IMG/VR virus record: IMGVR_UViG_3300022937_000060
Coordinates: 1-36,368 of that record
Direction: 5' to 3' (one strand)
DNA length: 36,368 nt
From: a virus
Positions 1-29,239 of this stretch are shown in pieces. Each line of letters starts with the position of its first letter. Position 1 is the stretch's first letter. A program made the position numbers and the translations under genes. The notes beneath the pieces were generated by a model. That model did not search any database. It worked only from the letters and a program-made list of their open reading frames with translations, and was not told the origin of the DNA.

Positions 1-3000
1 GCCATTTGTCAATTGCAAAACTTCTATCAGTACCTATAATAATTTTCTTCCTATAACCCGGATTTAATATTTTATTGTTAACTTGTACAACAATATTATT
101 TGCTAAAGGTTCTCTATTATATGGAAGGAGAACTTCTGCTTGTGGGTTAGCACCTGTTCTAAATATATGATAATTTTTTACACCATCAGGAACAAAAGAT
201 TCATCAACAACTATTTGACTAAAATCAGGTGTTGTACTATTATAAACTGTGTAATCAAAAATATCGCCTATTTGGCTTTTTGTTGTAAGCTCTATAAACA
301 AGTTACCATTAACATTTAGAGGTGTTGCTAGTTCAACATTTCCGTTTCTTGTAACAAACAAACTATAATTTGTATCGTACTTGATATCTGTATGCAATCT
401 TGTTGATTGATCAATAGCAACAATACGATCGCTGTCTATTACATCAAGACCATTATTATCAATTAATATAATGTTTAGATTTTTATTTGCAACTAAAGGT
501 GTACTATCAGCAAATTGGAATGTGTTTGTTTTCCAATCAATTGTGTACAACGATGGATCTAGTATTTCATAATCTAGTTTTGCAATTACATTTGATTGCG
601 ACTTTGCTGTTCCGCTTAGTGCATACTCGAGTGTAGCATCGTCGGTTGTAAAGTTGTGTACAGTTATAACACCCTGTCCATCTTGAACTCTGTTGTACAC
701 TGTAATATCTAGTGCATCAACTAATTGGCCAGGTACCTGTTCCTCAGGTCCTTTACTTGTAGTTGGTGTAACAAATCCATCACCGTCAACTGTAATATCA
801 CCTGCTTGAACTCCAGTAGCAGTTGATAGCGCAAAATCGCCACCACGTAGTTCTACATCAAAATTAGTAAAGTCTGGAGTAGTTGTACCATCACTAGATT
901 CTTTTCTAATAATAATAGTGTCACCGGCTTGGTTGGCAACATAAGGAATATCATCAAGAATGTTATATTCCTCAAGTATATCACTTAAAACAATACTAGT
1001 TGTAATACCGTCGCCGTTTATTGGACCCATTACAGCAAATGGTAATTTTTCATCTGCTGTTGGCCAACTATCGCTGTCTAGTCTAATTGGACTTTCGCTC
1101 TTAGGTGCAGCAACACTCTTGAAGTAAATGTTGTATGTAACGTTTGCTTCAAGAGGAGTAGCAAGATCAAGCACATTTGTACTACCATCTAATACAAATA
1201 TTTCATCATCAAATGCACTGTCGTATGTGTCAAAACTGTTTACACCAAATCCATCAGTATCAAACCCTAGAGTATTACCAAATGAAATTGTATCTATTTG
1301 AACTCCACCGTAATCAATGCCATCCATTACTTGTGCAAGATCGTTACCTGGCATGCCGTCTGTTGGCTTATAGAAATAGGTAATTCTATCTGCTGCTGTC
1401 AACATACTTGCATTTCTATAATAATCTACAATAACAACAGCACCTGTTGCAGGAGGTTCTGCAAAACTAATAACACCTAATTTTCTAGTATACCCTGTGC
1501 TTGTATCTTCTTTGTTGCTAGGTGTAAACTCACTGCTTAAACTTTCAACTCCGTCTACTGTTACTTTGATTTTTGAAACTCTAGTGTCAATTGGCCATTT
1601 CAATACAAAATCAGTTGACGCACCGTTTCCTGTAAATGTTTCAGTTGGAACATGTAAATCAGTGAAAACAAGATTTCCTGATACACGATCAAACTTCATT
1701 AGCATATGTGTTGCTTTTGCTTTGCTATTACCAATAATAGCATATGCTCTTGCTGGTGTACCTTCTTCAGATTGTGTACCGTCAAAAGTTACAGTAGGTG
1801 CTGTAATATATTTTGCACCTTTTACATCAACATCAATAAAGTTTACAACATCTCCAGCAAGTGTAGCTCTACCTTTTAATGTAGGACCTCCGCCACCGCT
1901 TACAGTTACATTTGGACCATCAGTCCAACCTGTGCCGCCATCATAAATCTTAAATTCAGTTATTTCAAAACCAACATTATCTAACCAATGCTTTTGAGGA
2001 TACGTTTCAACAAAAGGACTGTAAGTTTGTACTTCGCTATTGAACACACTTGTTCTTTCGGCAACAATACGTCCTTCTACTTCATCATAACGTGGCTGCA
2101 AATCAAAGTCAGTTACACTGGTTTGTGTCGGCTCTGTTTTTTGATAACTGCTTACGTATTCTCTAACTTTAGTTTTGTAAGGTTTTACTTCGTTTACATA
2201 ATCTTCATAATTAGGAAGGTTATCATTTTTGAATGTAATTTTTTGTTGTAGTTCGCCAACATTGTGTTTTGCTTTTACAAAACTTGTTTTGAATACCCAA
2301 TCAATATTAACTTGTTCACTTAATGCATATCTAATACTTGCAAAGAACAGTTTGTTCCACTCAACTTCTAGTTGGTCTACAAAAATTTGATTTTGTAAAG
2401 CCAACATAATGTTGCGTATTTCGTTTACAGGTTCTCTATCATACAAGTATGCATCAAATACTTGATTATCAAAGCCACTGGTTTGATTTTGATACAATAA
2501 TTTTGATAATTGAATTGTACCATTTTGTCTACCAATAGTTTTATAATTTACAGTATAATCTACTTCTGGTAAGTTGTCAATTTTTTCTAGTAGTAACCAA
2601 CCACCAGATCCAATGTTTTCAATCTTTACCACTTCGCCAATTAAATCGTTGGTTGCTTCTAATGCATAACTTCCAGGTACTAGATGATTGATAGCAGTAG
2701 TTTCATCATACCCTTCTGCATACCAGTCTGTATATTGCCAATATAATGTAGTATCATACGATTGTATTCTTTCTACACTCCATTCTTTTTGCTCCGGTGT
2801 GTAATTATACAATGCCCAGAATCCGCCAATGTTGCTATCATTTTCAACAAGCACTGTAAATCTTCTTACAATTAACAGTGTGTTATCACTGTAATTTTTA
2901 CCTTCTTTTTCTACTACTGCACTTGTAACTTGTCCTAGGTTATTGATGTAAAGTTGTATTTTTGCACCTGTACCTGTGCCTCTAATATCTACAGTAGGTC

Positions 3001-6000
3001 CTTTGCGCACACTGCCTTCTGTATAACTAGGATCAACATATCCTCTACCTGGATTTGTGATAGTTACACTTTTAATTCTTCCATCAATAATTGTAGGTGT
3101 AAGTGTAGCAGTTTCAATTCTAGCAACAGGAACAAATCTTAAAAGATTTTCGCTTGCAATTTTAACATCGTAATCATTGCTGTAAATGCTAGGCATTGGG
3201 TCTGCTTTTTGTAAACCACTTAAACTAAAATCATCTACAATTAAGTTATCTGCAAGAACACCATTGACTCTTTCAACTACTTGCTTTAGAGCCTCAGTTC
3301 TATTGATAAACATACTTTGATTTGGAGTATTTAGAACACCATACCTACGAGGTATGCTAATATCAATGTCTGGTAGCTGATTACTGTTTTTGTCATATCC
3401 TACTAAACTGTCAATCCATTTTTGCACTATATCTGCATTAGGCTTGCTTGTAGCAACGCCTTCAGTTAGAAGCTGATATTCACTGTGAATATTATTTTCA
3501 GTTTCAAACTTTTTCCATTCAACATGCAGAATTATATTTTCATCTTTGATAAGATTTCTTACGTTGTAAAGTCCAAACTTGTTGTTTTCATAGAATGCTA
3601 CAAATCTGTATCCTTGACCTGCAGGATCTTGAATAAGCAATGTTACATCATATGCACTAATGCTTCGTGTGTCAACTGCCGGAAGGGTTCTTTTGTTCTT
3701 TACCCAATAATAATATTTGTTTGAGAAGGTTCCTGTTACTGCATCATACACATCTGCAACAACATAACTGTCGTCATTGTATTTGGTTGTTCCACTAACA
3801 CCATCTGCTAGGCCTTCTACTGTATCTGCAATATCATCCCATTCGCTCGGTAGTAAGTCGCTTTCAACCCATTCGTAAACGTCTACTTCAAAACTTGGTA
3901 GCGGAGTATTCCAATTGTTAGTTTTATATTCAAGGCCACGCTGTCTTGTATTAAACCATTTGATTGTGCTTAGGTCCCACCATAGCTTTCCAACATATCT
4001 ACTGTCCCAAGGTGTTTTGTTTCCTGTATTTGTGCTGCCAATATTATACACAGCAGGATCATAATACAACTTGAAACTTAGTTCTTGCTCTGCAGGTCCT
4101 GCGATTTTACCTTGTACAGGATCAATATAATCCAAGTATGTTACAAGATCGCCGTTTGTTTTGTCGTACAAGAATACATTTTTAATCTGTGATAAATCAA
4201 CATAATCTTGTATCAAACTATTTGAAGTCCAAGCATTAGTATTTTTCTGTGCTCTAAAATCTACAACAAATCCAACGTTTGTATCTAGGCCAAGACTATT
4301 AGTAAACATACTGCCAGGTTGTCCAACAATAATGTGGTTATCAACTATTTTCACACTTGGGAATAGAGCTTTTGAAGTATCTCTTAGATATCTCATTTTT
4401 TCTGCATAAATCCAAGTATCGTTGTAGTTTTCAAAAATGTAAACTTGACCGTTATCTACAACACGATCTCTAAATGCAGTTGCACTATTATCAAATTGTG
4501 TTAGATTTGAATCAAATGTCATTTCTGCAATATTATCACCGTTGGTGCTCATTATTGCAAGTTTGTTTTTGCTAAAATCTAAGCTGTAACCAAAGTATTC
4601 ATTTTGCTGTCCTTTTGGAGAATACAATTCTTGTTGCAATTCAAACAAAGGATTTTCGCTGTCAAAATTGTATCTATAAAGATATACTTTACCATTGTTT
4701 AGACCTGTAAAGTCAGAGCCAATAGCACCTATTGCAATGTCTTTTCCATCATCTGATACTGCCAATGAATAAGCAAAATCGTCTTCTGCTGCTACATCGC
4801 CGTCAATGTTAGATTCGTAAACATAACGTCCGTCGTTGTTGTTGAATCTGTATACACTAACACGATTGATTCCTGTTGCATCTAAATAACCAGCAATAGC
4901 TATCACATTACCATCTTTTGATACATCAAAACTTTTACCAATATCAGATGCTGTGCCTAAACCTACACTGTCACTTTCTGTTTCTGTTACATCACCAAGA
5001 TTAGGTACAAAACCAACATAGTCAATATATTGATCAAGTTGTTGCCACTCGCTGTCAACACCAGGTAGTATTCCACTACTTCCAAATACATTTGTTGTTG
5101 CTTTGTATAAAATATATCCTGCAAATACTATTTCACCTTCATAGTATGTTTTTAGAGGATCAAATGTACCTTTGTAATTTGGATCTCTTGAATAGTTGAA
5201 AATGTTTACATTAGCAAGACTGTTTTCTAAGAAATATATTCTACCATTATCTGCTAAACTTCTCACATAAAACTTGTGTACTAAATCGCTAGTAAATGCA
5301 GACTTGATTGCAATACCAAACTGCTCTCCTGATCTAGCAACAGGTGATAAAATTGTTGCTTCTAGTTTATAAGCTGTAACATCTTTTTTGTAGACATGTA
5401 TAACACCTTGGTTTTGTAGATTACTTAAATATGCTGATTGGTCAGCAGTTAATACATCTACTAACTCCCAATCCTGTGACAAAGTACTGATTGTACTATC
5501 TGCTACACCAGCAGGAGTATCTCTTAGTGCTTGCCATAATGTACCTCTGTCAGATACAATATCATATTGTAAGTAGCTTGCAGTACCATCATATTCGCCA
5601 ACATATTTGCTGCGAACATCACTTGCATTAGGTGCACCAACAATAATGTATTGTCCGTTTTCAGTTACGTCAACACTAGTACCAAAACCTGAACCTATAT
5701 CATAAAGTGTACCAACAGTTAAAGTACCACTGTTTACATCGTGTGTGCCTAATGCTGTAGTATCTACAGGATTAGTTAACGCTTTATCTGTGTAAATTTC
5801 AAATGCAGTTGTAGTTGTTGGTTTTGCATAATAATAATTGTCGTTAAGAGCAGTAATACCAGTTGCATTTGAAATTAATATTTTTTCGCCTTCTCTAATT
5901 CCGTGTGCAATAGGTGTAGTAATTACACCAGGATTTGAATTTATTATACTTTCAATTGCTTGTGTTTTAATACCATCAATTTCTAAAGTTTGTAATAATG

Positions 6001-9000
6001 TGTATTCTAATGATTCACTTAATCTAGTATATACAGCAACACGACCATTTAATCCTGCACCAGGCATACCTACTGCCAACACTTGATTGCTACCACTTGC
6101 TGCAAAACTAGTACCATAACCTACATCTACTAATCCTTCTTCATTTGGAATTTCTGCTTGTAGATTAAATATTCTAGCATTATCAATTACTTCGCTTTTG
6201 CCAGTACCGTTATCGTCTAACCATAGGCGATCATTTTCAGTAACATCATAATCAATTAACAGTGAATTAATATCAGTGATATTGTTTAGTCTACGACCAT
6301 TTAATTGTGATACTATACCAAGTGTACTATCACTTAAATCAATGCCTTCTTCTCCAATGTCTTTGTTTGAATAAAATTCAACAACATTCAAACTTACATC
6401 TCTAGCAGTCCAAAATCCGTTAACATCGTCGTTAACATTGTTAATACCAATAATTTCGCCGACGCTAAAAGGAACAGCTCTATCAAAAGTTGCTGTAAAT
6501 CCAATATCTGTTTTGTCTATTCTAACAATTCTTACAGGAGATTGAATGTGTTTGTAAACACTCCATGATTGTTGTACTTCAGGTACCCAAATGTACTTGT
6601 TTAGATCAATACTGTTTATGTTGAAAGATAGCACATCTTTTAATGAACGTGCAATGAAGTTTACTTGATCAAGAGCAACGTATCCTGCTGTTTTGGTATA
6701 TTCTTCTAAATTATCAGCAACAGGAAATGGTGCATGATCATAGTCGTTATTTTTTAGATATACTTTTGCTTTAGGATATTGATACACTAGATCAGTTCTA
6801 GTATTGTCAACTGTGTTGACCAATTCAACTGTTTGAGGCTCAATCCTAAATTGCTTTTCATCTAGTTGATATTCAACTTCGTCAAATGCATCTGTAGCAC
6901 CGTATTGTCCGGTGCGTATTGCCCATTCTTCAAAAAATTCTAAACTGTCTTTATCAGCACTACCTAATTTGTCAAACAACTTTGTAAGAGCATTTTTTGT
7001 ACCCTTATCTTGAATCATGCCTTGATAGAATTTATATTGACTTACATCGTCATTGATTATATTTTCTAAATATTGACGTTTTTGATAACCAATCAAGTGC
7101 TGTGCTAAACGCTGTTGTTCACTGTCAAAATTATCAGTGTCTAAGTCATAAAAATCGGTAAACTGATTTGCTCTGTAATCCCAGTTTGGTTTTAAGCTGC
7201 TTTTTGGACGCTCTGATAATACGTTCCAATTACTAAAGTTAAATTCTTCAGTGCCGCTGTGGGTTACAACAGCAGTGTAATAAAATTGCTTGTATTTTAC
7301 TAGTTCTCCGATGTAATAATCTTTCCATGATTCCCATTCAGTAACCAATGCTTCATCATATGTAAAGCCGGGAATATTTAGACTACCGTTCCAATCGTCA
7401 GTTCTATAACCAACTACTTTTATGCGTTCTTGTCTATAGCCTGGTTCAGGATCATAAATTGTGTCATTGAAAACAGTTGTATTGTCAATCAATACAACAT
7501 GTTCCTTTTGTACTAATGGTAGTTTAATAAAGAAAATACCTTCAGCATTATTCTTTGGAGCAATGCCAAATCTATTTGTGTTATCTCTAATAATATTTGT
7601 GTAGCTGGTTCTCAATTTGCCTGTATCTGCTTTTAACACATCTAAACCGTAAAAGTTATCAAACACATCGTCAACTACAAAATAATCTCTGTTAAATTCA
7701 ACAGTGTTTGCACCAGGACTTAAAACAATTACACTGTTTGCAGCCCAGTTCTGTGTTGTCCAGAATAAGAATTCTTTGGTTGCTAATCTAAAATCTTCAA
7801 TAGTTTCAGTTTCACGGTTGTTGTATTCAAAGCTAAATCCTAGCTCAAGTAAAGATTGTTCGTAGCCTAGTAAAAAGTCAACAACCTCTTGAGACTTTGT
7901 TAATATAGTACCATAATCAATTGTTGATTTAACGCTTTCAAATCTACGTCTAAGAACTGCATTAGCACCGCCAGCAATAGGTAATTCTTTTAGAGCACTA
8001 TATAGTGTTGAATCAAACTCTGCACCTGTGATATGGTTTTCATTTGCTCTATAGAATCTATTGCTGTATTTTACAATTTTACCTGCAACAACTTGTTTAT
8101 TTTCATCCCAATCAAGGAAGCTATCACTGATACCACCAACATTAATACCAATGTCGTTTGCACTTTCTATTGGCTTGTAATATTCAAAATACGGATCTTC
8201 TTTGTCGTATCCTGAAATCTTATATCCACGACCAATTTTTTCTATAATCACACCACTGTAAGAAACTATTTCTTGAGCACTACTAGTGTTTAAGAAAATT
8301 TGATAATTTTCTTGAGGTACAAATACATTACCTTGATTCAACGGTGTTCTACTATCTAAAACAAGTTTTAGTTTGCTCTTGTCTGCAAACCCGCCTAGTT
8401 TCAAACCTATTTGTGAGTTTATTGTTTTTAATCTGTCAATATATTTTTCATAATTTGCAGTAATATTTGTTTGCAAATAATTTTCAATATAATTTATTAA
8501 ACCAAGAGTTTGATTTACTTTTCCGTTGGTTTTTGTTTTAGGAAAAATTAAATCTTTTGCTCTAATTGCTTTTTTACCATTGTATACATAATTGCCAGCA
8601 ATGTTTCTTGATGTTCTTGATCTATCAAAACCAATTGCAAATACTTGTGCTGGTCTGTTGATTATCATTGCAACCAGAAGGCTAAATGCATAATCACTGC
8701 TGCGTCTCCAAGCAGTTTCAATAGGTGCTTCGTCGCCAAACTTAAAGCCATCGTTTCTCATCATAGCGTAGCTGAATTCTTTTGCAAAACCACTGGCTAA
8801 TGGGTCAACAAGTTGGCCAAATTGATTTACTGGCAAATGTTTTGTTAATTGTGGGCGCACATATTTCTTTTTAACATATGCTGCTTTTCCAGGTTCTTTT
8901 ACTAAGCCTAGTTCTAAGTCTTTCCACATAATCAAGTTATCACTGGTGTAAGGAGCTGGACCATATTGTGTTTCCCACCAAGTTGGTTTGACACTAAATC

Positions 9001-12000
9001 CAAGCATTTCCCACGGTGTCATATGTGGACGATCTGTATCATATGCTTGCTTGTACACAGCTCTCCAATACCCTGGTAATTTTTCACCAGTTGCGCTAAT
9101 GCTGCGTGAATAATTGTATGTAAATCCATCACCTTGAGTCACAAATTCATTTGTAGTATAATCAGGGTTTCCTACCAATGGCAACCATGCAACAAAATCA
9201 CTTATAAGGATTCTGTCCATGCTTTCTTTTGGAACGTTTGAATTACGATATATGCCTTCGATATAATCATGAATATTGAAAACATTTTCATCATATACAA
9301 CTTTTAAGTTGTTGTAAATTCTTTTTTCTAATTCCAGTAAAAGATCATCTCTGTAGTCGTTGTATGCAACACTTAAACTACCGTCGTGTCCTCTAATTAC
9401 TTTTGTAGTAGTTGAATAACTATTATCAGTTTGTAATTCAGGCTCATAGGCAGGATACATACCTAGTTTTGTAGGTGTAGGAGGTAAAAAACTTCCTTCA
9501 GTATTTTCGTACTCGTAGATTTTAATAACATCGCCATTTTCATTTGCGGCTGTAATATCAATAAATCCGTTTTCTGTAAACGTATAATCAGTACCATATG
9601 TTAATTGTGCATCGTTTAGGTAAACGTAAACTGCTTTTTTGGTTAATTGTCTAATATTAAAAACTTTAGAAAGAGCATAATATCTATTTCTATTATCAAG
9701 CACAGTATATTCTAATAACTTTGCACCACCGAATCCAATCATATCTGTACTGTAAAATGGCATGGTTTTTGTTTTGTTTTTTGTTAATTCTTGTAATAAC
9801 AAATCAACATGCTCTTTTACAGGGCCTACAAACGTACTTGCTTTGGCTACTGATAAAAATTCTCTTTTGAATTTACTATATTCAGTTTTTGCAAATCTTA
9901 CTGCTTTTACAATATTTGCATTTTTATCGGTAAGATGATACAATGGCAAATTAATAGGTCCACTGTGTTGTACAAATTTTCTACCATATTTTGCAACTTC
10001 GCCTAAGTCTCTTAAATTTCCGCGGCCTGGTTGTTTACCATTAAATGCTGGTACTTCTGCAATCAATCCTTCTACATGGTCATTAACTTGGCCAAGTGTA
10101 AACTCTGTAATATTATTATTAAGAGGATTTCTTTCAAGATTGTAAGGTATTTCATAATGTCCAACAGAAGTTTTGTCAGCACTGCTTTTTGTTTTAATAA
10201 TACAAACATCTTCTGCACTCAACTCTTGAACAAGATTTATTTTGCGTACATTGTTATCATCTACAAAATTCCAATCAACTCCTTGTATTTTGAATTGATT
10301 GTTAACATATACTTTGCATACAAGATCTGTTAGATTTGCACTGTTATTGTAAACATCAATTGGAAAACGATTTACTATGTCATCGCCTGTGTATTTTCTA
10401 ATAACATACTGGCTGCTTAATTCGTTTGCTTTTGTCCATGCATTAACATAGTACACACCGTTGCTTTTGTTTTTCTTTAGGAAAAGTTCATCGCTAGGTT
10501 GAGTGTATACAACGTTATTTTGTTCATACTCATATGATTGTGTAAGTAGAGGAAAATCAAATACAATATCACCTACGTTGTTTATATTTTTATATGCTAG
10601 AGGAAATCCTAATTCAGAATCGTTTGCACCGGTGCCTACTCTATAAGCAAACAATCTATTACCTTCAAAATTATTAGAAGGATAGTAGTCTTCATCACCT
10701 ATACTGTAGCCACTGTTGTCAAACAAATCAAATCTTGGTGCTTGATTTAGAGCAGTTTTATCCTGTGCAATTTTCCATTCTGTTCCATTGTACCAAAACA
10801 TTCTGCCAGCATTTTTATTACCATCTTTTACAAGCACAGTTTGATCTAGTTCAGGATCAGTGTCTTCTGTTTCAACCAAACTAATCTGTGTTGTATTTGT
10901 GTGAAGAATAAATGTTACTTCATAAATTTTACCATTTACAAGAGGATCTGGATCAGCTGTGAAAAGTACTCTCATACCTTCAACAAGATCAATACCATCA
11001 ATGTTGTATCCACTTTGTCCTTCGATGTTACTAAAAACATCAGAAGTAAATGTATCAACTAGATCAACATAAGTTTTTGCAGTTGAACCGTGATTGTACA
11101 AACGTAAATTTGCTTCAAATTCAATAATAGGACGTTTTGCTCTGAGAGATTCATCTAACCCTGTTTCTTGATTGTTAATTCTTGCTGATTCTTCAATTAC
11201 ATCTTTGTGGAACCAACGGTTATATCTAGCCCAGCCATTCCTACTTTCATCTGCACGGTTCATACAGATATAATCTTTTGTACCGGCAAAACTTTTTGCA
11301 TCACCAAACGGTACTCTATCAAATCCGTTGGTATCAAAAGGTACAAGCGTGTCTTGTGTAAAAATAGCAGGCACTGCAAGATCTGTCAACGGCACAAGTT
11401 TGATTGCTTCACCTACACCTTCAACATAGAACAATCCATTGTCATAAGAGGCTGGTGTAACATTACCTTGGAAATAAACTTTCATACCATTTGAAAAATC
11501 CCAGCCATCGCTAGTTCTGTAAGTTTTTTTACCAAGTATTTCATCTTCAACATTTATTTCACTGTTTTCTTCAATGTCGTATATGTTGAAAACACCACTG
11601 GTGTTGATATTATTTTGTGAAATGTAGTAAAGTGTTTCAGGTGCGTTCATTGGAACTGTAAATTCAAGAACACCTTTTTCAACAAATCCTTCTTTAATAG
11701 CATATTCTCTTTCTTTAAGAGTGTCTGTATCATTAGGAGTTATTTCAACACCGTCTTCAAATAGTGTTGTTATTAAACTACTGTCTACATTATCTAAACC
11801 AGGCTGAAACGCTCTACTGATTGCTATACCAATTGGATGGCCCGGAGTGTCAATTTCAAATCTATATGTTTGTCCTCTGTAAAGTTTCAAAGACGGGTTT
11901 CTTGAAAATCCGTTTGGTGTAAAAACATAAGCAGTATTATCATCATCTACAACCGTTGAAATTGTATATGTGCTACGGACTTCTAAACTTTGTCCTCTAA

Positions 12001-12478
12001 CAGGAATTTCTTGTGGACCATTTGCTAACCAGTAATATTCACGGAAGTTGGTAAACTTGTCAAAGTTTATATGTGGATCCCATGCATAAAATTCTTGGCT
12101 GTTTAATTTACTGTGATCTTTTGTAGTTGATCTAAACGCAGTAAGTTGACCAATGTAGTCATTGTAGTCTTTGTAAAACTCTACATTGCCTATATTGTCT
12201 TTGATTACAACAGCAGGTTCTAACTGATAATTTTCTCTATTTGTGCTAACATCTGCAAGATATGTATCTGTAGATTTTACAGCCTTTGCTTCTCTACGTC
12301 CGGCAAAAGCATTGATTTTTTCTACAACACCGGGTGTTGTAACTTGATCTAATGTACTTCCTAAAAACTTTTTGTTAGCTTCAGTTCTAAAGTATCGAGG
12401 CAAAAAGTTAGCACTAGAAGGATTCTTTGAATCACCGGCTGGCAAAGGATATTCGTTCTGCTCGTCGTTATATGCCAT
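1..12478 (-). CDS. Giant virion structural protein, C-terminus outside window
   Basis: The minus-strand frame starts at ATG 12478 and looks open to base 1, giving at least 4159 codons with no stop in the stretches I checked. The start overlaps the gp6 stop (TAATG), and a GGAGG ribosome site lies in the end of gp6 (12488-12492). The protein begins MAYNDEQNEYPLP. Near residues 197-216 it has LYRGQTYRF followed by TPGHP, a motif I associate with giant structural proteins of marine T4-like phages. Residues about 2110-2740 hold repeated FG-GAP-like beta-propeller blades, and near residue 3613 there is an FTGNGASTDF segment of the kind common in phage tail structural proteins. The position right after gp6 is that of the wedge protein gp7 in T4 (about 1030 residues), so it may replace or extend gp7. 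It is probably a baseplate, tail-fibre or host-contact protein. The structural role is fairly sure; the exact role is inference. Confidence 0.85.
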   Translation of the reverse strand, partial: MAYNDEQNEYPLPAGDSKNPSSANFLPRYFRTEANKKFLGSTLDQVTTPGVVEKINAFAGRREAKAVKSTDTYLADVSTNRENYQLEPAVVIKDNIGNVEFYKDYNDYIGQLTAFRSTTKDHSKLNSQEFYAWDPHINFDKFTNFREYYWLANGPQEIPVRGQSLEVRSTYTISTVVDDDNTAYVFTPNGFSRNPSLKLYRGQTYRFEIDTPGHPIGIAISRAFQPGLDNVDSSLITTLFEDGVEITPNDTDTLKEREYAIKEGFVEKGVLEFTVPMNAPETLYYISQNNINTSGVFNIYDIEENSEINVEDEILGKKTYRTSDGWDFSNGMKVYFQGNVTPASYDNGLFYVEGVGEAIKLVPLTDLAVPAIFTQDTLVPFDTNGFDRVPFGDAKSFAGTKDYICMNRADESRNGWARYNRWFHKDVIEESARINNQETGLDESLRAKRPIIEFEANLRLYNHGSTAKTYVDLVDTFTSDVFSNIEGQSGYNIDGIDLVEGMRVLFTADPDPLVNGKIYEVTFILHTNTTQISLVETEDTDPELDQTVLVKDGNKNAGRMFWYNGTEWKIAQDKTALNQAPRFDLFDNSGYSIGDEDYYPSNNFEGNRLFAYRVGTGANDSELGFPLAYKNINNVGDIVFDFPLLTQSYEYEQNNVVYTQPSDELFLKKNKSNGVYYVNAWTKANELSSQYVIRKYTGDDIVNRFPIDVYNNSANLTDLVCKVYVNNQFKIQGVDWNFVDDNNVRKINLVQELSAEDVCIIKTKSSADKTSVGHYEIPYNLERNPLNNNITEFTLGQVNDHVEGLIAEVPAFNGKQPGRGNLRDLGEVAKYGRKFVQHSGPINLPLYHLTDKNANIVKAVRFAKTEYSKFKREFLSVAKASTFVGPVKEHVDLLLQELTKNKTKTMPFYSTDMIGFGGAKLLEYTVLDNRNRYYALSKVFNIRQLTKKAVYVYLNDAQLTYGTDYTFTENGFIDITAANENGDVIKIYEYENTEGSFLPPTPTKLGMYPAYEPELQTDNSYSTTTKVIRGHDGSLSVAYNDYRDDLLLELEKRIYNNLKVVYDENVFNIHDYIEGIYRNSNVPKESMDRILISDFVAWLPLVGNPDYTTNEFVTQGDGFTYNYSRSISATGEKLPGYWRAVYKQAYDTDRPHMTPWEMLGFSVKPTWWETQYGPAPYTSDNLIMWKDLELGLVKEPGKAAYVKKKYVRPQLTKHLPVNQFGQLVDPLASGFAKEFSYAMMRNDGFKFGDEAPIETAWRRSSDYAFSLLVAMIINRPAQVFAIGFDRSRTSRNIAGNYVYNGKKAIRAKDLIFPKTKTNGKVNQTLGLINYIENYLQTNITANYEKYIDRLKTINSQIGLKLGGFADKSKLKLVLDSRTPLNQGNVFVPQENYQIFLNTSSAQEIVSYSGVIIEKIGRGYKISGYDKEDPYFEYYKPIESANDIGINVGGISDSFLDWDENKQVVAGKIVKYSNRFYRANENHITGAEFDSTLYSALKELPIAGGANAVLRRRFESVKSTIDYGTILTKSQEVVDFLLGYEQSLLELGFSFEYNNRETETIEDFRLATKEFLFWTTQNWAANSVIVLSPGANTVEFNRDYFVVDDVFDNFYGLDVLKADTGKLRTSYTNIIRDNTNRFGIAPKNNAEGIFFIKLPLVQKEHVVLIDNTTVFNDTIYDPEPGYRQERIKVVGYRTDDWNGSLNIPGFTYDEALVTEWESWKDYYIGELVKYKQFYYTAVVTHSGTEEFNFSNWNVLSERPKSSLKPNWDYRANQFTDFYDLDTDNFDSEQQRLAQHLIGYQKRQYLENIINDDVSQYKFYQGMIQDKGTKNALTKLFDKLGSADKDSLEFFEEWAIRTGQYGATDAFDEVEYQLDEKQFRIEPQTVELVNTVDNTRTDLVYQYPKAKVYLKNNDYDHAPFPVADNLEEYTKTAGYVALDQVNFIARSLKDVLSFNINSIDLNKYIWVPEVQQSWSVYKHIQSPVRIVRIDKTDIGFTATFDRAVPFSVGEIIGINNVNDDVNGFWTARDVSLNVVEFYSNKDIGEEGIDLSDSTLGIVSQLNGRRLNNITDINSLLIDYDVTENDRLWLDDNGTGKSEVIDNARIFNLQAEIPNEEGLVDVGYGTSFAASGSNQVLAVGMPGAGLNGRVAVYTRLSESLEYTLLQTLEIDGIKTQAIESIINSNPGVITTPIAHGIREGEKILISNATGITALNDNYYYAKPTTTTAFEIYTDKALTNPVDTTALGTHDVNSGTLTVGTLYDIGSGFGTSVDVTENGQYIIVGAPNASDVRSKYVGEYDGTASYLQYDIVSDRGTLWQALRDTPAGVADSTISTLSQDWELVDVLTADQSAYLSNLQNQGVIHVYKKDVTAYKLEATILSPVARSGEQFGIAIKSAFTSDLVHKFYVRSLADNGRIYFLENSLANVNIFNYSRDPNYKGTFDPLKTYYEGEIVFAGYILYKATTNVFGSSGILPGVDSEWQQLDQYIDYVGFVPNLGDVTETESDSVGLGTASDIGKSFDVSKDGNVIAIAGYLDATGINRVSVYRFNNNDGRYVYESNIDGDVAAEDDFAYSLAVSDDGKDIAIGAIGSDFTGLNNGKVYLYRYNFDSENPLFELQQELYSPKGQQNEYFGYSLDFSKNKLAIMSTNGDNIAEMTFDSNLTQFDNSATAFRDRVVDNGQVYIFENYNDTWIYAEKMRYLRDTSKALFPSVKIVDNHIIVGQPGSMFTNSLGLDTNVGFVVDFRAQKNTNAWTSNSLIQDYVDLSQIKNVFLYDKTNGDLVTYLDYIDPVQGKIAGPAEQELSFKLYYDPAVYNIGSTNTGNKTPWDSRYVGKLWWDLSTIKWFNTRQRGLEYKTNNWNTPLPSFEVDVYEWVESDLLPSEWDDIADTVEGLADGVSGTTKYNDDSYVVADVYDAVTGTFSNKYYYWVKNKRTLPAVDTRSISAYDVTLLIQDPAGQGYRFVAFYENNKFGLYNVRNLIKDENIILHVEWKKFETENNIHSEYQLLTEGVATSKPNADIVQKWIDSLVGYDKNSNQLPDIDISIPRRYGVLNTPNQSMFINRTEALKQVVERVNGVLADNLIVDDFSLSGLQKADPMPSIYSNDYDVKIASENLLRFVPVARIETATLTPTIIDGRIKSVTITNPGRGYVDPSYTEGSVRKGPTVDIRGTGTGAKIQLYINNLGQVTSAVVEKEGKNYSDNTLLIVRRFTVLVENDSNIGGFWALYNYTPEQKEWSVERIQSYDTTLYWQYTDWYAEGYDETTAINHLVPGSYALEATNDLIGEVVKIENIGSGGWLLLEKIDNLPEVDYTVNYKTIGRQNGTIQLSKLLYQNQTSGFDNQVFDAYLYDREPVNEIRNIMLALQNQIFVDQLEVEWNKLFFASIRYALSEQVNIDWVFKTSFVKAKHNVGELQQKITFKNDNLPNYEDYVNEVKPYKTKVREYVSSYQKTEPTQTSVTDFDLQPRYDEVEGRIVAERTSVFNSEVQTYSPFVETYPQKHWLDNVGFEITEFKIYDGGTGWTDGPNVTVSGGGGPTLKGRATLAGDVVNFIDVDVKGAKYITAPTVTFDGTQSEEGTPARAYAIIGNSKAKATHMLMKFDRVSGNLVFTDLHVPTETFTGNGASTDFVLKWPIDTRVSKIKVTVDGVESLSSEFTPSNKEDTSTGYTRKLGVISFAEPPATGAVVIVDYYRNASMLTAADRITYFYKPTDGMPGNDLAQVMDGIDYGGVQIDTISFGNTLGFDTDGFGVNSFDTYDSAFDDEIFVLDGSTNVLDLATPLEANVTYNIYFKSVAAPKSESPIRLDSDSWPTADEKLPFAVMGPINGDGITTSIVLSDILEEYNILDDIPYVANQAGDTIIIRKESSDGTTTPDFTNFDVELRGGDFALSTATGVQAGDITVDGDGFVTPTTSKGPEEQVPGQLVDALDITVYNRVQDGQGVITVHNFTTDDATLEYALSGTAKSQSNVIAKLDYEILDPSLYTIDWKTNTFQFADSTPLVANKNLNIILIDNNGLDVIDSDRIVAIDQSTRLHTDIKYDTNYSLFVTRNGNVELATPLNVNGNLFIELTTKSQIGDIFDYTVYNSTTPDFSQIVVDESFVPDGVKNYHIFRTGANPQAEVLLPYNREPLANNIVVQVNNKILNPGYRKKIIIGTDRSFAIDKW
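4260..6140 (-). repeat. FG-GAP-like beta-propeller blades inside the giant protein
   Basis: Translated on the minus strand, about seven segments share a pattern of F-G-x-S-hydrophobic-x-V-x-x-(D/N)-G followed by a hydrophobic strand and (V/I)-G-A/G-P. Approximate positions are 6135, 5710, 5330, 4950, 4790, 4590 and 4370. Clear examples read FGTSVDVTENGQYIIVGAP and FAYSLAVSDDGKDIAIGA. This resembles integrin-type FG-GAP repeats, which form seven-bladed propellers and often bind ligands or sugars. Blade spacing is uneven (roughly 125 residues for the first blades, 50-75 for the later ones), so other material is inserted between early blades. Confidence 0.6.
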
Positions 12479-26749: not shown

Positions 26750-26985
26750 CAGACGATACACACGACTTGTTGATGCAAAAAGTTATGGACTACCTCAAAG
26801 CAAGTGAGGAGTTTGAAACACGGCCTAGTAAGAATACTAGTCGCACAGCAAGGCGTGAACTACGAGAACTAATGAGGCTGGCAAAAACAAGGCAAGACGA
26901 AATAATGGCTCACTATAATGAAGTACTAGAAGGCTTTCGTAAAGATCAAAAATGGCAAGGCAGAAGAAAATATCCGCTTATATAA
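26746..26985 (+). CDS. Small conserved protein downstream of gp46
   Basis: This 79-residue, charged, mostly helical protein (KVMDYLKASEEFETRPSKNT, then SRTARRELRELMRLAKTRQD) has no motif I can link to a function. Its placement directly after gp46 with an ATGA overlap, and its composition, fit a small protein I have seen at this position in marine T4-like phages. It may act with the recombination complex, but only the linkage suggests that. Confidence 0.75.
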   Translation: MTDDTHDLLMQKVMDYLKASEEFETRPSKNTSRTARRELRELMRLAKTRQDEIMAHYNEVLEGFRKDQKWQGRRKYPLI

Positions 26986-26988
26986 TGT

Positions 26989-27414
26989 ATGAGTTGGACA
27001 TACAAAGGTAAAGTAGTAGAATCAATACCAGATGAATACGAAGGCTTTGTATATCTAATTACAAACAAAAAAACAAAACAAAAATACGTAGGCAAGAAGT
27101 TAGCAAAATTCAAAACTACCAAGCCACCACTCAAAGGCAAAAAGAACAAACGTCGAGGTTACAAAGAAAGCGATTGGCGTGAATACTGGGGAAGTTCAGA
27201 TAGACTGAACGAAGATGTAAAAAACTTAGGCGAACAAAATTTTTCTCGTGAAATACTTTACTTTTGCAAAAGCAGAGCAGAAATGAGTTACATTGAAGCA
27301 CGAGAACAATTTGACAGGCGAGTATTAGAAACAGACGAATACTACAACGGCATCATCAATGTAAGAGTTGGTGGATCAGATAAACTACGCCAGGCACTAC
27401 TAGAACACAAATAG
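26989..27414 (+). CDS. SegE-like GIY-YIG endonuclease
   Basis: This 141-residue protein has a GIY-YIG nuclease N-terminal strand pair: GFVYLITNKKTKQKYVGKK at residues 19-37, followed by a Lys-rich linker, DWREYWGSS and a catalytic-type Glu region in SYIEAREQF. This is the pattern of the SegE-type free-standing homing endonucleases of T4-like phages, which cut a target locus and promote their own spread. The classical GIY triplet is degenerate (FVY). It starts 3 nt after the preceding stop and ends the replication operon. Whether it is an active homing enzyme or a domesticated nuclease cannot be told from sequence. Directly after it begins a 517-nt structured region. Confidence 0.8.
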   Translation: MSWTYKGKVVESIPDEYEGFVYLITNKKTKQKYVGKKLAKFKTTKPPLKGKKNKRRGYKESDWREYWGSSDRLNEDVKNLGEQNFSREILYFCKSRAEMSYIEAREQFDRRVLETDEYYNGIINVRVGGSDKLRQALLEHK

Positions 27415-27439
27415 GCAATATATTGAGCTCTAATAAAAC

Positions 27440-27640
27440 TCCAAGATCCAGCCGAGGTTATGCTCGTTGCCGGTGGTGTGGAATGCTCACGTGAAGAAGT
27501 ATACGATAGGCTTTGAAAGATTGCGGCTCTGAGAAAAAGCAACCGCAGGGTAAGTGTTTTCGCTTGTTAGGGAACAACTGCCTTCCGTTGATATGACGAA
27601 GCTAGAGTAGGGGGATACAGGTCAACCGCCTCCACTTAAT
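27440..27640 (+). ncRNA. Candidate structured RNA of unknown family
   Basis: Several helices can be drawn by hand. TGCGG (27522-27526) pairs with CCGCA (27543-27547). UAAGUG and CGCUUG (27551-27566) form a stem over a UUUU loop with two G-U pairs. CAAC and GUUG pair at 27575-27590. AGUAGGGG (27606-27613) pairs with CCUCCACU (27629-27636) with one mismatch. CGAG (27454-27457 region) pairs with CUCG just downstream. The elevated GC content in an AT-rich phage supports a structured RNA. It matches no tRNA, tmRNA, RNase P or group I intron core that I can recognise. The strand is taken from the neighbouring genes and is an inference. It could instead be a leader or a decayed gene. Confidence 0.35.
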
Positions 27641-27693
27641 GTTAAGTCAAAGTAACATTAATTTGTTTAGTGTTAAATTGAAATAACATTAAA
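27636..27693. repeat. Two tandem near-identical hairpins
   Basis: Hairpin 1 (27636-27661) has stem TTAATGTTA/TAACATTAA, 9 perfect pairs around an 8-base loop. Hairpin 2 (27666-27693) has stem TTTAGTGTTA/TAACATTAAA, 10 pairs with one G-T, also around an 8-base loop. They are direct imperfect copies about 30 nt apart. As DNA they could be paired protein-binding sites; as RNA, tandem stem-loops. Confidence 0.75.
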
Positions 27694-27745
27694 ATCTCTT
27701 TTAACAAGATGGCTGAAGCGACTCGAATAATGCTCAAAAGCTACC

Positions 27746-27765
27746 TTCGCCCGGCAACGGGCGAA
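27746..27765. other. 8-bp GC-rich hairpin with GCAA tetraloop
   Basis: TTCGCCCG (27746-27753), GCAA, CGGGCGAA (27758-27765) is a perfect 8-bp stem closed by a GNRA tetraloop. An outer TGAAG (27714-27718)/CTTCA (27772-27776) pairing may enclose it. No T-run follows, so it is not a typical intrinsic terminator. Confidence 0.65.
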
Positions 27766-27796
27766 TTATGACTTCACAATCTGAATAATACTAAAA

Positions 27797-27816
27797 GCAT
27801 ATGCATTCGCATATGC
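27797..27816. other. 8-bp hairpin GCATATGC
   Basis: GCATATGC (27797-27804), ATTC, GCATATGC (27809-27816) forms a perfect 8-bp stem with a 4-base loop. Each arm is itself a palindrome, so the element could also be two adjacent dimer-binding sites. Confidence 0.6.
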
Positions 27817-27834
27817 CTTAACTAATACTATAAT
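27806..27834 (+). promoter_or_regulatory. Weak sigma70-type promoter candidate
   Basis: A perfect -10 box TATAAT (27829-27834) lies 17 nt after TTCGCA (27806-27811), a 4-of-6 match to the -35 consensus. The -35 part is inside the GCATATGC hairpin. It would transcribe the gene at 27932. Confidence 0.4.
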
Positions 27835-27872
27835 CACAAACAAATAGTTCGTGTTGAGTGTAACGAAAACAC

Positions 27873-27892
27873 AGATGAACGTTAGTTCATCT
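27873..27892. other. 8-bp hairpin in leader of the 27932 gene
   Basis: AGATGAAC (27873-27880), GTTA, GTTCATCT (27885-27892) is a perfect 8-bp stem with a 4-base loop, immediately upstream of the candidate late promoter. Confidence 0.6.
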
Positions 27893-27898
27893 AATAAT

Positions 27899-27906
27899 AC
27901 TAAATA
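27899..27906 (+). promoter_or_regulatory. Late-type promoter candidate ACTAAATA
   Basis: ACTAAATA carries the TAAATA core of the T4 late promoter and is identical to the form upstream of the minus-strand late block (23027-23034). It lies 25 nt before the ATG at 27932, the distance seen at gp6. Confidence 0.5.
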
Positions 27907-27931
27907 CACTATACAGCTGGAACACTTACGA

Positions 27932-29239
27932 ATGAAAATCCTTGACGTTATAGAAAACAAAACCACTATTACATTTGAATCGAGAAAAGCAATTTTCGAA
28001 GATGCTAATCCACGACTTGAGTTTATGGTTGGAGAACTATATCCTATCCAAGGAGGACTGAATCAACCTGTACAACGTTATGCTGTTGGATTAGGTGGTA
28101 ACGATTACATTGAATTTGAAAGTGTAAGAGGAACTAGTGCAAGACAAGCAGCAGAACAATTTATCGAAGGAATCGACGAAGCTGATAGGACCAATACTCG
28201 AGCACTAAGACGAGCTGCTGGTAATAGACCTATAAGGAGTTTTGACGGGTTTCGTAACTTAGCAAGTAGACTAGCAGCAAAAGGTACAATCAGTCAATTT
28301 TCAGCGTTAGCCAATATTCCACGAGCAGGTCCAACTTTAACAAGGATTTTATCTAGTCCAGTATGGGCTGGCTTTTTTAGAATAATTAGTGCAGCAACAT
28401 TATCAGCTGACATTTATTTTTCTAGTATCGAAGTTATAAATGACTTAGAAAACGAAGCTAGAGAAGATCCTAATAGAGAAGAAGAACTTTTCCAACTTAG
28501 AAATATTCTTATTGCACAAATGCATGTTCAAATAGGATTAACACTATATCAAGTTATGAGAACAGCTAGTTTGTTCCGTAGAGCACTAAGTGCTATCAAA
28601 TGGACTGTTAGATCAATTCAAGGTGCTGCGGCATTATCAGGTGTTGGTACAGTACCTAGTCTTTTATCGTTAATAGTTACAGAAGCAGGCTGGTTAGTAG
28701 CAGGATTTGTTATAGCTAATCCTACTGTACAACGAGCAATAGCAGAGTGGATTCAAGATAGTATGTTTGCTGGAATTTTTGACATAGCAGGCCAAGGAAT
28801 ATCAGGGGCATATCAAATACTAGACACTGCATTAGACGGTGCTTTTGGTACTGATGCTATGAGACGTAACCTTGGCTGGGACAATGATCGAACAGAAGCT
28901 GCTGAAGGCGAAATGGTTACCAACAGTGAATGGGCAAAACTTGTGTTCCATGGATTACTGTTTCCACCGGGCGCAGAAAAACATCTAGTGCCTTATATCA
29001 ATCCTAATGAACGTACAAGATTGTTACAAGAAAAATTAGGAGTAACTGCAACTGATTCTGAACAACCAGAAGCAGGAGCCGAGCCTGGTATGGATACAGG
29101 AACACCGTTAGAAGTACCCGAGAATCCTTCGGACTTACTACCACCTACACCGACTCCTGAGCCTGCCGCTACACCTGCTCCTGCACCAGGACCAACTGAT
29201 GCAGAAGGTAGACGCAGACGACAACCGAGAGCTAGTTAA
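27932..29239 (+). CDS. Unknown protein with hydrophobic helices, probably virion-associated
   Basis: This 435-residue protein begins MKILDVIENKTTITFE. Residues 144-165 and 233-264 are hydrophobic enough to be membrane or buried helices (LLSLIVTEAGWLVAGFVIAN). Residues about 85-140 are Arg/Ala-rich. The last ~45 residues are a Pro/Ala/Thr-rich tail ending in RRRRQPRAS. I do not recognise a family. A GTG at 27851 opens the frame earlier, but the intervening codons fall over a hairpin and the late promoter, so ATG 27932 is preferred. The late-type promoter and the neighbouring tail genes suggest a structural or ejected protein. Its stop overlaps the stop of the converging gene by 4 nt. Confidence 0.7.
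   Translation: MKILDVIENKTTITFESRKAIFEDANPRLEFMVGELYPIQGGLNQPVQRYAVGLGGNDYIEFESVRGTSARQAAEQFIEGIDEADRTNTRALRRAAGNRPIRSFDGFRNLASRLAAKGTISQFSALANIPRAGPTLTRILSSPVWAGFFRIISAATLSADIYFSSIEVINDLENEAREDPNREEELFQLRNILIAQMHVQIGLTLYQVMRTASLFRRALSAIKWTVRSIQGAAALSGVGTVPSLLSLIVTEAGWLVAGFVIANPTVQRAIAEWIQDSMFAGIFDIAGQGISGAYQILDTALDGAFGTDAMRRNLGWDNDRTEAAEGEMVTNSEWAKLVFHGLLFPPGAEKHLVPYINPNERTRLLQEKLGVTATDSEQPEAGAEPGMDTGTPLEVPENPSDLLPPTPTPEPAATPAPAPGPTDAEGRRRRQPRAS

Follow-up and report, generated by a model that had tools for sequence, protein, structure and literature searches.

Why should a viral genome in which adjacent genes overlap by about 4 nt leave several hundred nucleotides without any gene? The question is raised by the window, that is, the whole stretch of 36,368 nucleotides analysed here (positions 1 to 36,368 of IMG/VR virus record IMGVR_UViG_3300022937_000060). 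The ORF list and the sequence define in it a gene-free gap of exactly 517 nt (27415..27931), bordered by the end of a SegE-like ORF at 27414 and by the ATG of the next ORF at 27932; an in-frame GTG of the latter ORF at 27851 falls within hairpins. The original prediction considered this gap exceptional for a gene-packed genome, and compared to the overlaps of ~4 nt between other adjacent genes (24971/24974, 26746/26749, 32496/32499) it is. Four readings were offered there, a phage regulatory RNA, a mobile-element remnant, an origin and a packaging-related site; covariation and the absence of a spanning protein strongly favour a phage RNA, though not its regulatory character, and the second is not supported. 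Judging from comparative sequence analysis, the gap is probably an RNA gene encoding an independent ~470-nt non-coding phage RNA on the + strand, which would act in trans and have the SegE gene as a hitch-hiker.

The gene upstream of the gap (26989..27414, + strand) is predicted to encode a free-standing SegE-like GIY-YIG endonuclease. Residues 3-123 of its 141-residue product match the Pfam family PF19835 (SegE_GIY-YIG) with E = 2.8e-33, and the gap thus starts right after a SegE-like endonuclease gene, as had been claimed. The SegE homologues H6, H9 and H31 from cyanophage and rhizobium phage records are labelled "NAD synthetase", as is PHROG 447; the Pfam family name for these proteins is SegE GIY-YIG. 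The downstream gene (27932..29239, + strand) encodes a fast-evolving 435-aa protein with 24-48% identity to most of its counterparts and without a match in Pfam or PHROG. Of the 61 downstream genes, 50 belong to one diverged family; a different 233-aa family substitutes for this gene in 10 of the 61 contigs. The downstream protein and its counterparts mostly have an MKLxELLxE-like start, which resembles the capsid-targeting sequence of T4 internal head proteins. On the opposite strand, positions 2-12478 of the window are occupied by an ORF of at least 4159 aa that runs past the window edge.

The number of distinct marine viral sequences that carry the same element is at least 129. Fifty IMG/VR contigs contain an exact 21-mer of the gap, 75 a second motif located ~140 nt beyond it, and 79 a third one. 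When a more distant SegE relative served as the query, 80 loci were retrieved; the covariance model recognises the RNA in 34 of them, with scores down to 25 bits. A SegE-independent search for just the conserved hairpin core found at least 119 contigs. Where the sequence suffices, the order of elements is shared: the SegE-like gene is followed by a ~220-nt domain, an optional hairpin, two repeats flanking a hairpin, more hairpins, a TAAATA motif in most close relatives, and the next gene. The islands of relatives mostly comprise 0.5-1.7 kb without a gene, and a conserved protein across the gap, which the original prediction had named as evidence against a structured RNA, was found in none of them. 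Seven matches to a 19-base pattern in cellular genomes were dismissed as chance, the model match there extending over at most 16-20 nt.

The structured RNA is assigned to positions 27422..27893 of the + strand, its ends being estimated from the conserved blocks and helices. Its ~220-nt domain, which contains an H-type pseudoknot, is followed by three to five tail hairpins. The G+C content of the domain (27413-27635) is 48%. Folding of the whole gap is more stable than that of shuffled sequences (z = -3.96; none of 100 shuffles equals it), and that of the first 286 nt alone is not above shuffles (z = -0.57); hence the evidence for the 5' part is comparative. It comes from an alignment, A1, of 32 distinct sequences from close and intermediate relatives that covers a 223-nt domain with 48 pairs in 8 helices. 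In A1, 97.0% of cells are paired (89.1% in shuffled alignments), both-side changes occur in 19 pairs (10.1 in shuffled), and the covariation score is 0.238 as opposed to 0.107 for shuffled alignments and 0.03-0.07 for slid partners; in these counts related sequences enter many times, and the nulls are column shuffles and slid controls rather than phylogeny-aware models.

The 5' hairpin domain (27424..27489) is closed by the outer stem TGAGC/GCTCA (27424-27428/27485-27489) and contains the inner stems TCCA/TGGA and GCCGAG. Both-side changes are seen in 4 of the 5 outer-stem pairs, one of which exists in CG, UA and GC versions. The next hairpin (27522..27547) has a covarying stem with both-side changes in 3 of 4 pairs and 100% pairing, and encloses a near-invariant internal sequence, CTCTGAGAAAAAGCAAC (27527-27543), with invariant columns. 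It is followed by a long hairpin, GGTAAGTGTTTTC/GAACAACTGCC (27549..27582), with 97.9% of cells paired and both-side changes in 4 of 12 pairs. The pseudoknot is formed by two crossing helices that are supported by both the close and the wide alignments. In stem S1, GUUGAU (27587..27592) pairs with GUCAAC (27621..27626), and in stem S2, GGGGG (27610..27614) pairs with CCUCC (27629..27633). S1 does not vary within the close set, but among 25 wider sequences 4 of its 5 pairs show both-side changes, with versions such as GUUGAU/GUCAAC, GCGUAU/GUACGC and GUAACU/GGUUAC. The pseudoknot covariation score of the wider set is 0.466 vs. 0.181. These 25 sequences were picked for a 5-bp S1, which accounts in part for their 100% pairing; with that selection removed, a 5-bp S1 is found in 114 of 122 distinct sequences and, by the same loose search, in 41% of shuffles. 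A helix AGGC/GCCT proposed by RNAalifold to close the 5' domain was rejected, being broken in L093 and clashing with the covarying S2.

The five clean hairpins reported for the gap are all perfect or near-perfect (27636-27692, 27746-27765, 27797-27816, 27851-27872, 27873-27892). The first of them corresponds to a variable hairpin (27635..27692), whose length in relatives ranges from 0 to 60 nt. It lies between the 220-nt domain and repeat R1 and has several versions that are unrelated to each other and common to different backgrounds, which suggests that the segment may be exchanged. Hairpin H2, TTCGCCCG-GCAA-CGGGCGAA (27746..27765), lies between the repeats, and H3, GCATATGC-ATTC-GCATATGC (27797..27816), is replaced by other hairpins in relatives. 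H4 (27851..27872) has an invariant tandem G.A motif, GAGYG..RCGA, enclosed by a covarying stem. In H5 (27873..27892), the probable 3' end of the RNA, all 8 pairs covary; the joint covariation score of H4 and H5 is 0.522 vs. 0.169. The covarying base pairs in homologous gaps that had been named as the supporting result are therefore present in the ~220-nt domain and in the 3' hairpins, and compensatory changes exceed both shuffles and slid controls, as expected for a conserved structured RNA. The alignments show a predicted fold kept by such changes throughout the 5' hairpin domain, the two conserved hairpins, the H-type pseudoknot, H4 and H5. A short ORF at 27711-27773 was discarded, its ATG being lost in L043 and L062.

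The repeated motifs noticed in the gap are also real: they include TAATACTA-like 14-mers, one of which overlaps the second of two short direct repeats, R1 and R2, that flank H2. In the window, the core GAATAAT is followed by G in R1 (27725..27731) and by A in R2 (27783..27789), both on the + strand. Three sites of the repeats are polymorphic among close relatives and carry the same letters in R1 and R2 in all 83 of 83 close loci, in five combinations, whereas the flanks differ between the two repeats, as does one core base, which is G in R1 and A in R2. By a search pattern drawn from examples, an identical 7-mer pair is found in 118 of 129 distinct sequences with ~16 different cores, as compared to 2 of 129 shuffled tails; those of the remaining loci that were inspected have matched pairs too, built on other cores such as the GCCACAT of L232. 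Since R1 and R2 are identical and not complementary, they cannot form ordinary base pairs with each other. Pairing elsewhere within the RNA was rejected: complements to the repeats are as frequent for own (45%) as for foreign (46%) cores, and one apparent link to S1 follows clades. Nor are R1 and R2 hairpin loops, no stem around them being above shuffles, and no extra copies above chance were found in the window or in long relatives. A reading as a codon plus stop in translational bypass was dropped in view of the cores CGAGAT and GCCACAT of other lineages.

No described family was recognised for the RNA. A search of 27415-27931 against Rfam, which the original prediction had suggested, gave no match: with Rfam 15, none was obtained at the gathering score for the window or 18 relatives, nothing relevant appeared at E <= 10 / 2, and distant members likewise had no match. 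ARAGORN detected no tRNA in the window or 28 relatives and no tmRNA in the window. A group I intron or tmRNA was thus recognised by neither Rfam nor ARAGORN, and comparison by eye showed no likeness to group I or II introns, RNase P or tmRNA. The predicted RNA is previously undescribed, and Rfam 15 is without it.

The genomic position was surveyed in 204 loci besides the window, of which 15 are at contig edges and 189 have enough upstream sequence. SegE is directly upstream of the RNA in 173 of these 189 loci; 8 loci have it at another position or on the opposite strand, and 8 lack it; the adjacency to the endonuclease gene is real and frequent but not obligatory. In all three classes, as far as the contig permits, gp46 is the upstream neighbour and a gp26-like baseplate gene the downstream one, their sides being exchanged in ~20 inverted cases. 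In L130-L132, L137, L140, L151 and L159, SegE and the RNA have the reverse orientation with respect to gp46 and the baseplate gene. The RNA is single-copy: each of 10 long records has it once, and so, by the model, does each of 7, although records may be incomplete. On these comparisons, the predicted RNA would be a core element of a marine T4-like phage clade, and its place between gp46 and the gp26-like baseplate gene is fixed.

The promoters claimed for the gap were partly confirmed. Sigma70-like sites in 26900-28500 are at chance level (2 found, 4.4 expected). The T4-late-promoter-like element of the downstream gene, ACTAAATA (27899..27906, + strand), has better support: 35 of 40 close relatives have a T4-late-like TAAATA after H4, vs. 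14% of shuffled sequences. In other lineages, 13 of the 139 distinct upstream regions contain a sigma70 promoter that matches at least 11 of 12 positions and lies on the RNA strand, against 1 for the opposite strand and an expectation of 0.7; some of the 13 are within the SegE 3' end. No sigma70 promoter above chance precedes the RNA in the window lineage, so the RNA there may be the tail of a gp47-gp46-SegE transcript.

This last point, together with the location directly after SegE on the same strand and the strong conservation of the 3'-terminal hairpins H4/H5, would suit a cis-acting RNA, namely a structured 3' UTR of the gp47-gp46-SegE transcript or a leader or attenuator of the downstream gene, affecting mRNA stability or read-through. 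We consider it unlikely. The late-promoter-like element of the downstream gene sits after H5, a terminator or stabiliser needs less than a 220-nt pseudoknotted domain, and the RNA is retained where SegE is absent and where gp46 is inverted. Furthermore, the next identified gene in L217, L218, L250, L267 and L289 is the baseplate gene on the opposite strand, ~510-550 nt past the core, which contradicts a regulatory RNA in the sense of a leader of the downstream gene. The fixed place with or without SegE and the opposite-strand next genes argue that the RNA is its own locus, and hence neither a downstream-gene leader nor a part of the endonuclease.

The other two explanations are less probable still. 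A DNA element such as a replication origin, a recombination site or a packaging site, with R1/R2 as protein-binding or crossover sites and the hairpins as single-stranded DNA, appears improbable, even though a pair of direct repeats that are identical in their cores is reminiscent of iterons or recombination sites and a single copy per contig keeps a fixed place beside the recombination gene gp46. An iteron-type origin has an array of several direct repeats; here there are two copies only and none elsewhere above chance. Compensatory changes including G-U pairs, the pseudoknot and the tandem G.A motif point to an RNA of one strand, and an origin or packaging site would leave them unaccounted for. 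That SegE and the RNA together make one mobile element, for instance an RNA-guided or ribozyme-bearing homing unit, is suggested by their adjacency in 173 loci and joint inversion in ~20; we regard this as very improbable. The synteny of the RNA is unchanged in the 8 loci that lack SegE, and a further 8 have SegE at another place or on the opposite strand; beyond the gp46 context, SegE homologues are as a rule without a model match. Rfam gave no match to group I introns, HEARO or any other family. A mobile regulatory cassette would be expected in several copies per genome, and one per contig was found; with the RNA single-copy and holding its place without SegE, the mobile-element remnant is not supported either.

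The independent RNA could be transcribed alone or at the end of the gp47-gp46-SegE transcript, would work in trans, and would display a single recognition sequence twice, as R1 and R2, on the two sides of H2. The simplest hypothesis is that one partner, a dimeric protein or an RNA pairing with the 7-mer, recognises both repeats and is bound twice; the RNA would then be a scaffold or a sponge. As no partner of R1/R2 was found in the transcript or the genome, the bivalent-binding step is a guess. We speculate, with more doubt than confidence, that the RNA represents a new class of phage non-coding RNAs carrying the same short exchangeable "address" twice, lineage-specific and matched within each RNA. 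The SegE-like neighbour may promote the inheritance of the region in mixed infection, by analogy with SegB, a seg-type GIY-YIG gene beside the T4 tRNA region that promotes its preferred inheritance (PMC2988022). In both cases a free-standing seg-type GIY-YIG gene adjoins an RNA locus; here, however, there is one large RNA, found also without the endonuclease, and homing is putative.

Large structured RNAs conserved in phages are few, and none is known to have a clear function. GOLLD and ROOL often occur near tRNA islands, a context that the window RNA does not share according to ARAGORN, and form homo-oligomeric RNA-only assemblies. They are long pseudoknotted phage non-coding RNAs of unknown function (PMC12286853). 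The window RNA, by its predicted fold, is likewise large, pseudoknotted and phage-borne; in contrast to them, it is shorter, has no sequence or covariance match to either, is located between gp46 and the baseplate gene, and carries the matched R1/R2. T4-type mobile promoter/stem-loop cassettes consist of a hairpin plus a promoter upstream of a variable gene, an arrangement also seen in the window locus; whereas these cassettes are repeated and short, the window RNA is single-copy with a large conserved domain. CfrI, PhotoRC-II and wcaG are also non-coding RNAs of marine T4-like phages, acting as antisense or cis-regulatory RNAs (PMC9602691). Unlike them, the window RNA has no antisense partner seen, and its next gene is on the opposite strand in some genomes.

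A sister form of the RNA is apparently present downstream of SegE in L111, L118, L122 and L148, in the same context with another 5' domain and without the CTCTGAGAAAAAGCAAC core. By eye, L118 and L122 retain a matched R1/R2 pair (ACATGAAG twice in L122), and L122 also has an H4-like motif. Among isolated phages, blastn with four members gave no meaningful match. In the jumbo T4-like isolates Phosso, Atu_ph07, Callisto and CBB search model R1 was unconvincing (best 17 bits, in CBB), and search model R2 had no match in the searched stretches of Phosso, PA5oct, Atu_ph07 and CBB. Two isolates have a (nearly) gene-free island at the same syntenic place, between gp46 and gp26-like/portal genes: Sinorhizobium phage Phosso (PV764938, 229762-230692; L101), ~0.9 kb with a fold z of -4.9, and PA5oct (MK797984, ~75770-77000; L297, 12110-13430), ~1.3 kb and preceded by a perfect TTGACA-N17-TATAAT. 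Neither model nor repeats tie these islands to the window RNA family; they are possibly RNAs in isolated phages.

The predicted RNA is abundant in marine viral contigs, at a fixed place of the genome, and absent from Rfam 15. The seemingly empty 0.5-1.7-kb islands beside gp46 in marine T4-like phages would thus be RNA loci missed by annotation pipelines. The matched R1/R2 cores provide a sharp handle for finding its partner. If the address reading is true, this partner is specific to the phage lineage, might be a host RNA, and is recognised through base pairing at two sites.
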